Part shown: piece after piece, positions 18,731 to 22,056 of the stretch
How the letters are laid out: the number at the start of each line of letters is the position of its first letter
Position numbering within the stretch: position 1 is the stretch's first letter
IMG/VR virus record: IMGVR_UViG_3300034101_001715
Coordinates: 1 to 23,594 of that record
Length of the DNA stretch: 23,594 nucleotides
Direction: 5' to 3' (one strand)
Origin: a virus
Made by a program: the position numbers and the translations under genes
The notes under the pieces: generated by a model
Told to the model about the DNA's origin: nothing
The model's database searches: none
The model's input: only the letters and a program-made list of their open reading frames with translations

Positions 18731-18982
18731 ACACCGTTGACAGGTTCGCCGGATGGTGATAGCTTTGCGGAAATTAACAACGGACAAGAACTGGACACGA
18801 ATATGGTCAATGAACTTAGGAACTATCACGTTAAGAAACTGCTCAATCATTTGGGCGGTGACGCTGTTGCTCCATACCTTCAGAAGGCTATTAAACGGTC
18901 TTATTCTGAGTTCGCAGAGGACGTAACTAAACAAAAGGACATGACACATGGACACAAATCAGACAACATCGGAAATAGCTAA
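18605..18982 (+). CDS. Hypothetical protein (125 aa) with a possible inserted N-terminus
   Basis: ATG 18605 is coupled by ATGA to the preceding gene. Residues 1-40 lie between two copies of a 24-bp repeat. The second copy holds an in-frame ATG at 18725 with the same upstream bases, so the ancestral protein may have started there (MKTPLTGSPDGDSF). The C-terminus (VNELRNYHVKKLLNHLGGD, then AVAPYLQKAIKRSYSEFAED) is helical. It overlaps the initiator gene by 35 bp. Family not recognised. Confidence 0.5.
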   Translation: MKEFILKNGSIIKIEGEDSEIKSGKYPIGYSAVNGNKGVEMKTPLTGSPDGDSFAEINNGQELDTNMVNELRNYHVKKLLNHLGGDAVAPYLQKAIKRSYSEFAEDVTKQKDMTHGHKSDNIGNS

Positions 18983-19808
18983 GCTTGTTAAAGAGCTTAC
19001 AAAACAGCCAATCGCAGTACAACCAATCTACAAAAAGCTTACCGGATCATGGTCAGCGGCAGTTCTTTTGTCTCAGGTAATGTACTGGTACGGAAAGATG
19101 GATCGTGCAATCTACAAGACCGACGAGGAGTTCATGGAAGAGCTTTGCATGACAGAAAAGGAGTTCCGCATAGCCAAAGAGCATTTAAAAAGCGTTCCTT
19201 TTGTTCGTGTGTTCAGGGCTGGGAATCACGGTCAGATGCACTATGAAATTAACTATGAACTATTCGTATCCACAATGAAGCATTGCATAGAAAAGCTGAC
19301 CTGCCCAAATGGGCGTAACGCCCAAAAGGGCATAACGTCTGCCCAAAAGGGCGAAACAGCCCCCCTTCTGATATGCCCAAAAGGGCGGAACTTATATACA
19401 GAGACTAACATATCAGAGAATACAACAGAGACTACAGCGATTGCTTCTGAAAACCAAACTCCAAAGCCCTCTCCAAATTCTCCTAAGGTTAGCATGCCGC
19501 TAAAATATACCGATGACTTCTCGGCGTTTTGGGCGTTGTATGGCATTGGCTCGAAAGCCTGCGCCTTCTCTGCTTGGAAGAAACAGAACCCTTCGGCAGA
19601 AGAACAGGCGGCAATTTTGGCTTGTGTTCCGGTTTATAAAGCCTATTGCGCTTCTGCTGATAGGTCTTTGAAGGACGGACAGGGCTGGCTAAACGGAAGA
19701 TTCTGGGAGAACACATGGACGCACCAAGCCCAGAATACAAAGCCTTCAACAAATCAGAAGCCATTTGAGGCACAGCCCGTGCAGATCAACAGATGCCCAA
19801 GCTTTTAA
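18948..19808 (+). CDS. Phage replication initiator (lambda O-like in role)
   Basis: 286 residues. The N-terminal 110 or so are a winged-helix replication domain (VQPIYKKLTGSWSAAVLLSQ, then VMYWYGKM, TDEEFMEELCMTEKEFR). A polar linker holds four DNA iterons. The C-terminal part has FWALYGIGSKACAFSAWKKQ and QGWLNGRFWENTW, the usual primosome-recruiting end of phage initiators. It would bind the iterons in its own gene and load the helicase coded 900 bp later. The start overlaps the gene before. Confidence 0.82.
   Translation: MDTNQTTSEIAKLVKELTKQPIAVQPIYKKLTGSWSAAVLLSQVMYWYGKMDRAIYKTDEEFMEELCMTEKEFRIAKEHLKSVPFVRVFRAGNHGQMHYEINYELFVSTMKHCIEKLTCPNGRNAQKGITSAQKGETAPLLICPKGRNLYTETNISENTTETTAIASENQTPKPSPNSPKVSMPLKYTDDFSAFWALYGIGSKACAFSAWKKQNPSAEEQAAILACVPVYKAYCASADRSLKDGQGWLNGRFWENTWTHQAQNTKPSTNQKPFEAQPVQINRCPSF
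19303..19386 (+). repeat. Four palindromic iterons, probable replication origin
   Basis: GCCCAAATGGGC at 19303-19314 and GCCCAAAAGGGC at 19320-19331, 19341-19352 and 19375-19386. The 3' flanks also share RNAAC. Copies 1 and 4 are read as C-P-N/K-G, copies 2 and 3 as A-Q-K-G, so the DNA word is kept in two frames. Position inside the initiator gene fits an origin. Confidence 0.8.
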
Positions 19809-19816
19809 GGAACGCT

Positions 19817-19927
19817 ATGACAGACCAATCATCAAGACGATTGCCACCATACAGCGAAGAGGCAGCCATTCTCAAAACAAGAACAACAAAAGATAAACAC
19901 ATTTACATGTTAATCCAGTGCTTTTAA
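19817..19927 (+). pseudogene. Remnant of the dnaB 5' end (36 aa)
   Basis: The frame starts MTDQSSRRLPPYSEEAAIL. Its LPPYSEEA matches the DnaB start (IPPYSEEA), and 21 of 22 bases at 19844-19865 match 20719-20740. After that it has no likeness to DnaB. It is probably the old helicase start, cut off by insertion of the methyltransferase gene. It still has a binding site (AAGGAA) and stop. Confidence 0.55.
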
Positions 19928-19938
19928 GGAATCTAAAA

Positions 19939-20709
19939 ATGGAGATAAAATATGAGTTGGCATTATTCGCAGGAGCCGGAGGTGGAATCCTTGGCGGTAT
20001 CTTATGCGGTCACACTTGCATCGGAGCTGTTGAGATTGAGGAATACCCAAGGAAAGTTCTTCTGGCTAGGCAGAGGGATGGACTCTTGCCAAAGTTCCCA
20101 ATCTGGGATGATGTCACAACCTTCCGGGCAGACAATCCAGAGTGCAGAGAATACATCGAGTTCCTTCGAAGCATCAAAGACGAGCTTGTTATCACCGGAG
20201 GATTCCCATGCCAAGACATTTCCTGTGCAGGAAAAGGAGCAGGAATCACCGGAGAGCGAAGCGGATTGTGGAAAGAGTTTGCCCGCATCATTCGCGAAAT
20301 ACGACCAGCAAGAGTGCTTGTGGAAAACTCACCAATGCTCACTGTTCGGGGGCTTGGAGTCGTTCTCGGAGACTTGGCCTCGATGGGGTATGATGCACGA
20401 TGGGGAGTGCTGGGAGCTGAACACACCAACCTACCTCATAAAAGAGAAAGAATATGGGTGTATGGTTCCAACTGTAACGAAATCAATTTCAAAAGGAGCG
20501 CCAAGGAAAAGGTATTTAGGTTCCCAGGAATACAGAGGGAATCACATAATGGAGTGGTTAAGAATGAATCAGAACTCAGAGCAATACTATCACCCGGACT
20601 TTGCAGAAAATATAATGGGGTGGATAATCAGGTGGACAGACTTGAAGCCATTGGAAACGGACAAGTTCCGGCTGTGGTTAAACTCGCATGGGATATACTT
20701 GGAGACTGA
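19939..20709 (+). CDS. C5-cytosine DNA methyltransferase
   Basis: 256 residues from ATG 19939 (AAGGA 8 bases upstream). It transfers a methyl group from S-adenosylmethionine to cytosine in DNA. Motif I ALFAGAGGG (8-16), motif IV GGFPCQDIS with catalytic Cys91, motif VI VLVEN (126-130; Ser follows instead of the common Val), motif VIII KRERIW (168-173) and motif X RLEAIGNGQVPAVV (234-247) are all present in order. The target-recognition region is short (about 55 residues), so the enzyme is small for the family. It may protect phage DNA from restriction. A second long frame lies over the whole gene. Confidence 0.93.
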   Translation: MEIKYELALFAGAGGGILGGILCGHTCIGAVEIEEYPRKVLLARQRDGLLPKFPIWDDVTTFRADNPECREYIEFLRSIKDELVITGGFPCQDISCAGKGAGITGERSGLWKEFARIIREIRPARVLVENSPMLTVRGLGVVLGDLASMGYDARWGVLGAEHTNLPHKRERIWVYGSNCNEINFKRSAKEKVFRFPGIQRESHNGVVKNESELRAILSPGLCRKYNGVDNQVDRLEAIGNGQVPAVVKLAWDILGD

Positions 20710-20716
20710 CAAATGA
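19952..20716 (+). CDS. Overlapping alternative-frame protein inside the methyltransferase gene (254 aa)
   Basis: This frame (+1 to the methyltransferase) is open for 254 codons. Its ATG has GGAG exactly 7 bases upstream (19941-19944), and its TGA (20714-20716) overlaps the dnaB ATG as ATGA, the junction used by most genes of this operon. The product includes SHAKTFPVQEKEQES, LFGGLESFSETWPRWGMM and, near the end, IRWTDLKPLETDKF. From memory these segments recur in phage proteins found at methyltransferase loci, and several are the shifted reading of conserved methyltransferase motifs. That can mean true dual coding or a long open shadow. Not a methyltransferase itself; function unknown. Confidence 0.5.
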   Translation: MSWHYSQEPEVESLAVSYAVTLASELLRLRNTQGKFFWLGRGMDSCQSSQSGMMSQPSGQTIQSAENTSSSFEASKTSLLSPEDSHAKTFPVQEKEQESPESEADCGKSLPASFAKYDQQECLWKTHQCSLFGGLESFSETWPRWGMMHDGECWELNTPTYLIKEKEYGCMVPTVTKSISKGAPRKRYLGSQEYRGNHIMEWLRMNQNSEQYYHPDFAENIMGWIIRWTDLKPLETDKFRLWLNSHGIYLETDK

Positions 20717-22056
20717 TACCACCATACAGCGAAGAAGCAGAGCGTGGAGTTCTCGGCTCGGCACTGATTGATTCTGACCGTGTAATGGATATGCTCCAAA
20801 CCATGTCCATCACGGAAGATTCTTTCTACATCCCAGCTCACCGCCTTCTGTTCGAAACTCTCTGCGAAATGCACAACGCATCAAAGCGGATTGACCTGCT
20901 GACCGTTGGAGAGGCTTTAAAGACCTCTGGACGGCTTCCAGCATTGGGCGGATATTCGTTTCTCGAAGGACTTATTGATGGAACTCCTACAGCGGCACAC
21001 GCTGAATACTACGCTGAAATCGTAGTCAAGAAGCACAAACTACGCAGAATCATCACTCAGGCGGCAGAAAGCATAGACAAGTGCCAAGCGGACAAAGACC
21101 CAGACGAAATTATCGCAGAGGCTACAAGCGGGCTTTCAGGAATCGAAGTCCGTGAAACCGTTCAGTCAGACGATGATATCATCCGGCATCACGAAGAGGC
21201 TATGCGGGGGAATCCAAACTGCATACCTACCCCTTTCGAGAGTCTTACCCGCAGAACAGGAGGGGTTCGTAGAGGGATGGTAACGGTAATGACCGGACGC
21301 TCAAAGTCTGGAAAGTCCATGCTAAAATCATTCTGGATTCGACAGCTTGCAGAGCAAGGATACCGAGGGGTTGACTTTTGCTTTGAAGATCGCTGGGAAA
21401 TCAGCAAGAAGCGCATAGCTTCCATCGGAAAGTACAGTATCAGCGAGTTGGACGCTGGCGGTCGGTATGTTCTGGACACTTCTACAGGGAAGTTTCATTG
21501 GTTCCCTGTTTTCCAGAACCAGATTGACGAGGAGCGGGAAGCCTTGGCAGAAGTATCCAAGCTACCGATTTGGTTCTTCGACAAAAAGATAACGGCCAAA
21601 CAGCTCCATTCTGTGATTGCAAAGTACAAGCGGCAACATGATATCCAGTACGCTTTCATTGACGGTGCAAAGGATATGAAGCGTCCTTCAGGAAAGTACA
21701 ACGATTGCGGTTTCGAGGAAGAGGTCAGCCAAGCGATGACTGAGATAGCGGCAGAGTTTGACATCGCACTGATTGCAATTCACCACCTTACAAAGATTGA
21801 AGATAAAGACCTGATTACTCCTAACAGTATCCGAGGTAGCGGAAACATTGTTGCAGACAGCCGGTGCGTGTACGCCGTTCAGGGCGACAGAAACGGAGCA
21901 GGGCTTGATAAGTACGGCGACGGGCAACTCTTGGAGAGGGATGAGGAAGGATACGTTACAACGAGGGTTCTGGAGTGCATCGTGAATAACCACGGGCAGT
22001 CTGGAAAGGTGTGGATGGGGACAGATTTGGGCAAGTGCAATTTTTGGAAGGTATAA
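20713..22056 (+). CDS. dnaB: Replicative DNA helicase, DnaB type
   Basis: 447 residues. The N-terminal domain (PPYSEEAERGVLGSALID, RLLFETLCEMH, YAEIVVKKHKLRRI) binds primase and holds the hexamer. The RecA-like motor has Walker A GRSKSGKS (195-202), Walker B YAFID near 313-317, the IAIHHLTK segment (354-361) and the DNA-contact segment RGSGNIVADSRC. It unwinds DNA at the fork, loaded by the initiator upstream. Its original start appears to be partly copied 870 bp upstream. The present ATG lacks a clear binding site of its own and may depend on coupling to the frames before it. Confidence 0.93.
   Translation: MIPPYSEEAERGVLGSALIDSDRVMDMLQTMSITEDSFYIPAHRLLFETLCEMHNASKRIDLLTVGEALKTSGRLPALGGYSFLEGLIDGTPTAAHAEYYAEIVVKKHKLRRIITQAAESIDKCQADKDPDEIIAEATSGLSGIEVRETVQSDDDIIRHHEEAMRGNPNCIPTPFESLTRRTGGVRRGMVTVMTGRSKSGKSMLKSFWIRQLAEQGYRGVDFCFEDRWEISKKRIASIGKYSISELDAGGRYVLDTSTGKFHWFPVFQNQIDEEREALAEVSKLPIWFFDKKITAKQLHSVIAKYKRQHDIQYAFIDGAKDMKRPSGKYNDCGFEEEVSQAMTEIAAEFDIALIAIHHLTKIEDKDLITPNSIRGSGNIVADSRCVYAVQGDRNGAGLDKYGDGQLLERDEEGYVTTRVLECIVNNHGQSGKVWMGTDLGKCNFWKV

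Follow-up and report, generated by a model that had tools for sequence, protein, structure and literature searches.

A gene nested in the +1 frame of a viral C5-cytosine methyltransferase gene as a probable target-recognition subunit

Introduction

Division of a C5-cytosine methyltransferase between two polypeptides is described for M.EcoHK31I (YGGCCR), in which the large chain carries motifs I–VIII and X, the small chain carries motif IX only, and the predicted target-recognition domain is placed in the large chain (PMC3404938). In M.AquI, motifs I–VIII are found in one chain, and the small chain holds the distal variable region together with IX and X (PMC3404938). A concealed gene of another kind is the ShiLan element, an out-of-frame HNH endonuclease hidden in mycobacteriophage methylases (PMC11855218).

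Here we analyse a window (the whole stretch of DNA studied, a virus record of 23,594 bases) in which a C5-methyltransferase ORF, termed α, carries a second ORF, termed β, in its +1 frame. By description, M.EcoHK31I appears to be the closest characterised enzyme: as described (PMC3404938), it shares the layout of the window, with I–VIII and X in α and IX in β, but the segment under selection in the window lies in the small chain, β, whereas the predicted target-recognition domain of M.EcoHK31I is assigned to the large chain. M.AquI resembles the window in having the catalytic motifs in one chain and the variable region and IX in the other, and differs in that motif X is located in α in the window but in β in M.AquI (PMC3404938); some relatives of the window gene (L231, L247 and L292–L294) do fit the M.AquI-type split, with motif X in the small chain. 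Furthermore, M.EcoHK31I is described as one restriction-modification enzyme, whereas the α–β pairs considered here form a family across phages. The small ORF of M.EcoHK31I, too, is reportedly situated in another frame inside the large ORF; if this is true, the pairs belong to a broad family whose founder has been characterised, and no new principle is involved.

The ShiLan element is similar to β in being a second gene concealed out of frame within a phage methylase gene, but it is an inserted homing endonuclease, whereas β is overprinted on the methylase itself and has no HNH match. In addition, β matches PHROG 1008 (‘DNA methyltransferase’), an entry described without reference to an overlapping-frame subunit, and to which the ‘DNA methyltransferase domain protein’ of Streptomyces phage Samy is related. 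In Paenibacillus phage Lily, LILY_63 (‘g62 internal gene’) is homologous to β and sits within a cytosine methyltransferase gene at the same relative frame, but is shorter and annotated without a function. In the literature collection searched, the overlapping arrangement was not found described as a family. Genes of bacteria and phages that overlap fully over a long stretch are rare, and their reality is disputed; β adds a case with a clear selection test, a proposed function and a spread over many phyla.

Results and Discussion

Organization of the α–β locus

The α ORF runs from an ATG at 19939 to a stop at 20709 on the plus strand (as do β and the motifs and start and stop signals located below), between a replication initiator-like gene (18948–19808) and dnaB (20713–22056), and is preceded by AAGGA (19926–19930), a possible ribosome-binding site. 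The 256-aa product is a C5-cytosine methyltransferase with motifs I–VIII and X, matching PF00145 (E=3.7e-29; 102.6 bits against a cut-off of 22) and phrog_363 (E=1.3e-52). Motifs IV (PCQ), VI (EN), VIII (RxR) and X (GN) are all present; an alignment to M.HhaI covers IV–VIII (PCQ, EN, RERI) and places motif IV (GGFPCQD, which includes the catalytic Cys) at 20197–20217 and motif VIII, HKRERIW, at 20437–20457, while motif X, IGNGQVP, is read directly from the sequence at 20650–20670. A target-recognition domain and motif IX were not found in the α chain, the part between VIII and X being nearly unconstrained and the motif IX-like part lying in β.

The initial annotation had drawn attention to a 254-codon ORF at 19952–20716 in the +1 frame of the methyltransferase, and every coordinate that it gave proved right. 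This ORF, β, encodes a 254-aa chain and lies inside α save for its final 7 bases. GGAG at 19941–19944, within the start of α and 7 bases ahead of the β ATG, is a possible ribosome-binding site, and the ATGA overlap with dnaB that had been noted is likewise present (20713–20716); in it the β TGA (20714–20716) meets the dnaB ATG at 20713; α, as had been stated, ends 3 bases short of dnaB.

Three parts of β can be distinguished. The N-terminal half (19952–20419), over α motifs I–VII, is conserved in distant relatives, with EDSHAKT, WKTHQCSLF and ETWPRWGMM retained, and is a candidate contact region for α. It is followed by a target-recognition-like segment (VPTVTKS...KGAPRKRYLGSQEYRG; 20420–20590), which sits over α motif VIII and the linker and is marked out by the regional selection counts given below and by a module common to distant phages, and then by a motif IX-like segment, HPDFAENIMGWIIRWTDLKP (20591–20650), which has a profile match to fused methyltransferases. 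The β stretch LFGGLESFSETWPRWGMM, previously taken for the shifted reading of the motif VI region, is indeed nearby but overlies the stretch between VI and VIII (TVRGLGVVLGDLASMGYDARWG), just past motif VI.

Three observations concern the surroundings of the locus. A 36-codon ORF upstream of α (window 19817–19927) echoes the start of dnaB (20713–20745; LPPYSEEAA against IPPYSEEAE), as if the 5′ end of dnaB had been duplicated upon arrival of a methyltransferase cassette. The replication initiator-like gene contains GCCCAAAWGGGC four times (window 19303–19386), similar to the origin iterons of lambda-type O genes. At window 18587 and 18707 the same 24 bases, GGAAATAAGGGAGTGGAAATGAAA, are repeated exactly, with a candidate ribosome-binding site and start codon in each copy.

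The +1 frame is kept open in relatives and its start codon is conserved

Chance can produce a long second frame in a single gene, and the open +1 frame might be a by-product of the codon bias or protein conservation of the methyltransferase, a reading to which we now give practically no credence. When synonymous codons of the window gene were shuffled, the +1 frame acquired 7.3 stops on average, and none of 500 shuffles was open. To 80 viral relatives gathered with α alone, in whose selection the second frame thus had no part, were added the earlier phage and viral loci found with β, giving a set of 96 genes. In this set the +1 frame contained 32 stops against 431 expected under the codon-shuffle null and was fully open in 85 of 96 genes (0.9 expected), the genes being mutually related (most have ~45–65% amino-acid identity to the window gene), so that these totals do not count independent trials. 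Most of the 32 stops fall in distant relatives with a shorter β. The +2 control frame of the same 96 genes had 1151 stops (1073 expected). Stops are therefore absent from the +1 frame above chance, as the initial annotation had proposed to check; codon shuffles and control genes rule out chance or codon bias as the source of the open frame, and the +2 control frame also argues against it.

The internal start is conserved as well. The triplet at the β start is ATG (96) or GTG (6) in 102 of 107 distinct genes. The α residue at this position is usually Asn, encoded 91 times by AAT and never by AAC, even though AAC is the commoner codon elsewhere in these genes; where another residue takes its place, Tyr and His are encoded by TAT and CAT and Arg mostly by CGT, so that ATG or GTG results once more. 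In most relatives the α and β starts are 4 bases apart (RTGAATG), and one ribosome-binding site could consequently serve both; the spacing in the window is 13 bases, and β there has the GGAG of its own. In two relatives, L045 and L136, the β frame ends early (after 142 and 124 codons, respectively), which may reflect decay, sequencing error or a β that is no longer needed.

Selection differs between the frames and along the gene

In a dual-frame count, in which each change was scored as silent or not in either frame, dNN/dNS for the +1 frame was 0.69 (0.61–0.78) over 17 pairs of relatives, against 1.00 (0.87–1.13) over 28 gene pairs in flanking, non-overlapped control genes of the same loci, and pSN/pSS was 0.45 in the overlap against 0.86 in the flanking gene pairs. 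The +2 frame behaved alike in the overlap and the flanking control pairs. Comparison with the flanking genes therefore indicates that changes that alter β while silent in α are selected against, in keeping with the synonymous-site constraint that had been predicted. The similarity of +1 translations is not used as the main proof because the +2 frame also scored above its null, as is expected where third positions are constrained.

It had been left undecided which frame the conservation comes from. The ratio of α-only to β-only change (NS/SN; 43 independent pairs, no sequence used twice) apportions it by region: 0.24 up to motif III, 0.17 over motifs IV–VI, 0.50 over VI–VIII, 3.14 between VIII and X, where α changes about three times faster, and 0.89 at motif X. 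Thus α is dominant over motifs I–VI, both frames contribute at VI–VIII and at X, and β dominates between VIII and X; the low ratios over the motifs identify α as the main holder of the catalytic core. Between VIII and X, β is constrained and α is an open, nearly neutral linker, although its quick change there could include adaptive change and not pure loss of constraint. In single-chain C5-methyltransferases this interval is the home of the target-recognition domain.

Since openness of frame 0 is a circular measure in genes defined by their methyltransferase, it was counted in loci found with β alone. No frame-0 stop lies in the linker in ~73 of 80 of these (67 by automatic count plus six whose stops, at the first codon of the match, were judged false alarms), against ~13% expected from shuffling β codons, which suggests that translation of α continues across the linker as far as motif X. 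In a few loci the core itself contains frame-0 stops, possibly through decay or sequencing error.

The C-terminal part of β occurs within single-chain methyltransferases

β matches phrog_1008 (E=2.8e-13), but searches of Pfam and NCBIfam with β gave no match, including no HNH or other nuclease domain, and the β profile found no match among solved structures. AlphaFold2 gave a poor model of β alone (pLDDT 56), and a fold search with it returned no meaningful match. The model of a fused chain has a core that matches M.HhaI and M.HaeIII, and did not resolve a canonical target-recognition fold. When isolated C-terminal pieces were scanned against Pfam, a single weak PF00145 match was obtained, from a β chain that carries motif X (E=0.044).

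By the measure of profile similarity, the C-terminal part of β is nevertheless shown to be homologous to the VIII–X segment of single-chain methyltransferases. Mycobacteriophage chains such as L278 carry the β C-terminal segment (LPTPxASD...EWMMGWPxGW) in the methyltransferase frame, between VIII and X, in the position of target recognition and motif IX; the β C-terminal profile finds these fused chains with E down to 4e-14, the window segment HPDFAENIMGWIIRWTDLKP aligns with EWMMGWPAGW of the fused chains (hhalign probability 95.7, E=1e-8), and PF00145 spans one fused chain in one stretch (profile 1–317 of 324). Another arrangement is seen in L231 and L247 and in the actinobacteriophages Samy, Jamun and DrYang, where α ends past motif VIII and the β frame carries motif X.

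The same segment is also found in different frames in close relatives. L287 and L272 have cores that are 99.5% identical, followed by a segment with an 88% identical stretch that is in the β frame in one and in the α frame in the other, and L285 and L278 form a similar frame-switched pair; the difference between L287 and L272 could in principle be a broken gene. Separately, in the mycobacteriophage relatives L288 and L290 the frame changes within motif VIII or the core, and these may be broken genes or sequencing errors.

Two alternative readings have to be weighed here. First, β could be real and selected but act outside the methyltransferase, for instance as a separate anti-restriction or regulatory protein that overlaps by happenstance; the β N-terminal half indeed has no homologue of known function, and the lack of a solved-structure match suits this reading. 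It is, however, difficult to reconcile with a β that always accompanies a methyltransferase in the loci examined, with a C-terminal half that in other phages is within the methyltransferase chain, and with the several loci that have motif X in β alone, and we regard it as unlikely. Second, a programmed +1 ribosomal frameshift past motif VIII might fuse the α core to the target-recognition segment, leaving the β start unused, as the single fused chains of mycobacteriophages and the near-identical relatives with the segment in different frames might suggest. Conservation of the β start codon, selection on the β N-terminal half and the excess of α frames open through the linker to X all argue against such a shift, as does the window itself, which has no frame-0 stop to mark a shift site, and we consider it less likely still.

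Modules in the +1 frame

Pairs with near-identical cores (up to 98–100% over 120 residues) differ by 30–70 codons in gene length, and between VIII and X β often contains repeated PTPxASD-like units. The window unit KGAPRKRYLGSQEYRG recurs in Bacteroides, Paenibacillus and Stenotrophomonas phages, as well as a human faecal phage record and an Acinetobacter genome, and in all 10 pairs compared the β frame of the unit was more similar than the α frame. This variation in length and units looks like an exchange of target-recognition modules, and the exchanged β modules presumably set specificity.

A proposed two-chain enzyme

Pieces that swap between one and two chains most likely act together, which points to β as the target-recognition region plus motif IX. 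On the evidence of sequence comparison, we consider it very probable that β is a genuine gene, nested in the α gene, for the target-recognition and motif IX subunit of a two-chain C5-methyltransferase. We suggest that two close start codons on one mRNA would give rise to the α and β chains, that α would provide SAM binding, catalysis and motif X, and that the two would assemble and methylate phage DNA, presumably against host restriction. The view of the initial annotation that one DNA segment codes two proteins is supported to the extent that the second gene survived stop, start and synonymous-site tests; that both chains are translated, that α binds β and that β sets the target sequence is what we infer from this.

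With rather less assurance, we also favour the broader proposal of a widespread methyltransferase class with catalytic and target-recognition subunits from two frames, in which exchangeable target-recognition modules arrayed in the +1 frame set specificity and move between frames over evolution. Were this correct, the target could be changed by editing one frame while the other tolerates the change as a neutral linker. Such a class would account for many phage methyltransferases that seemingly have no target-recognition domain, would reveal a large gene class absent from annotation and would offer a natural example of a protein domain shifting between reading frames. Moreover, an α gene cloned or recoded alone may yield an inactive enzyme.

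Distribution and annotation

When bacterial and archaeal genomes were scanned with an alignment of β, 80 loci were kept, from Pseudomonadota, Spirochaetia, Verrucomicrobia, Planctomycetota, Actinobacteria, Bacillota and others. Each of these 80 loci has a C5-methyltransferase match in the same DNA at exactly the −1 frame, and β therefore appears to have no independent existence; no stand-alone β gene was seen among the bacterial-genome loci examined. In phage and plasmid records, the matches to β coincide with proteins that are either annotated as methyltransferases or unnamed. Across nearly 200 relatives, comparison indicates that α is the catalytic chain and β the target-recognition chain of one methyltransferase; the arrangement occurs in many phages and bacterial phyla, and annotation almost always misses β, the records usually giving the methyltransferase alone.

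Finally, Enterobacteriaceae genomes (L298–L321) contain a divergent methyltransferase type (YYNEIDP...) whose long +1 frame likewise bears the β C-terminal signature, and the arrangement may therefore extend further, and be older, than the set analysed here suggests. One locus, L258, has two adjacent α–β pairs, one of each methyltransferase type.
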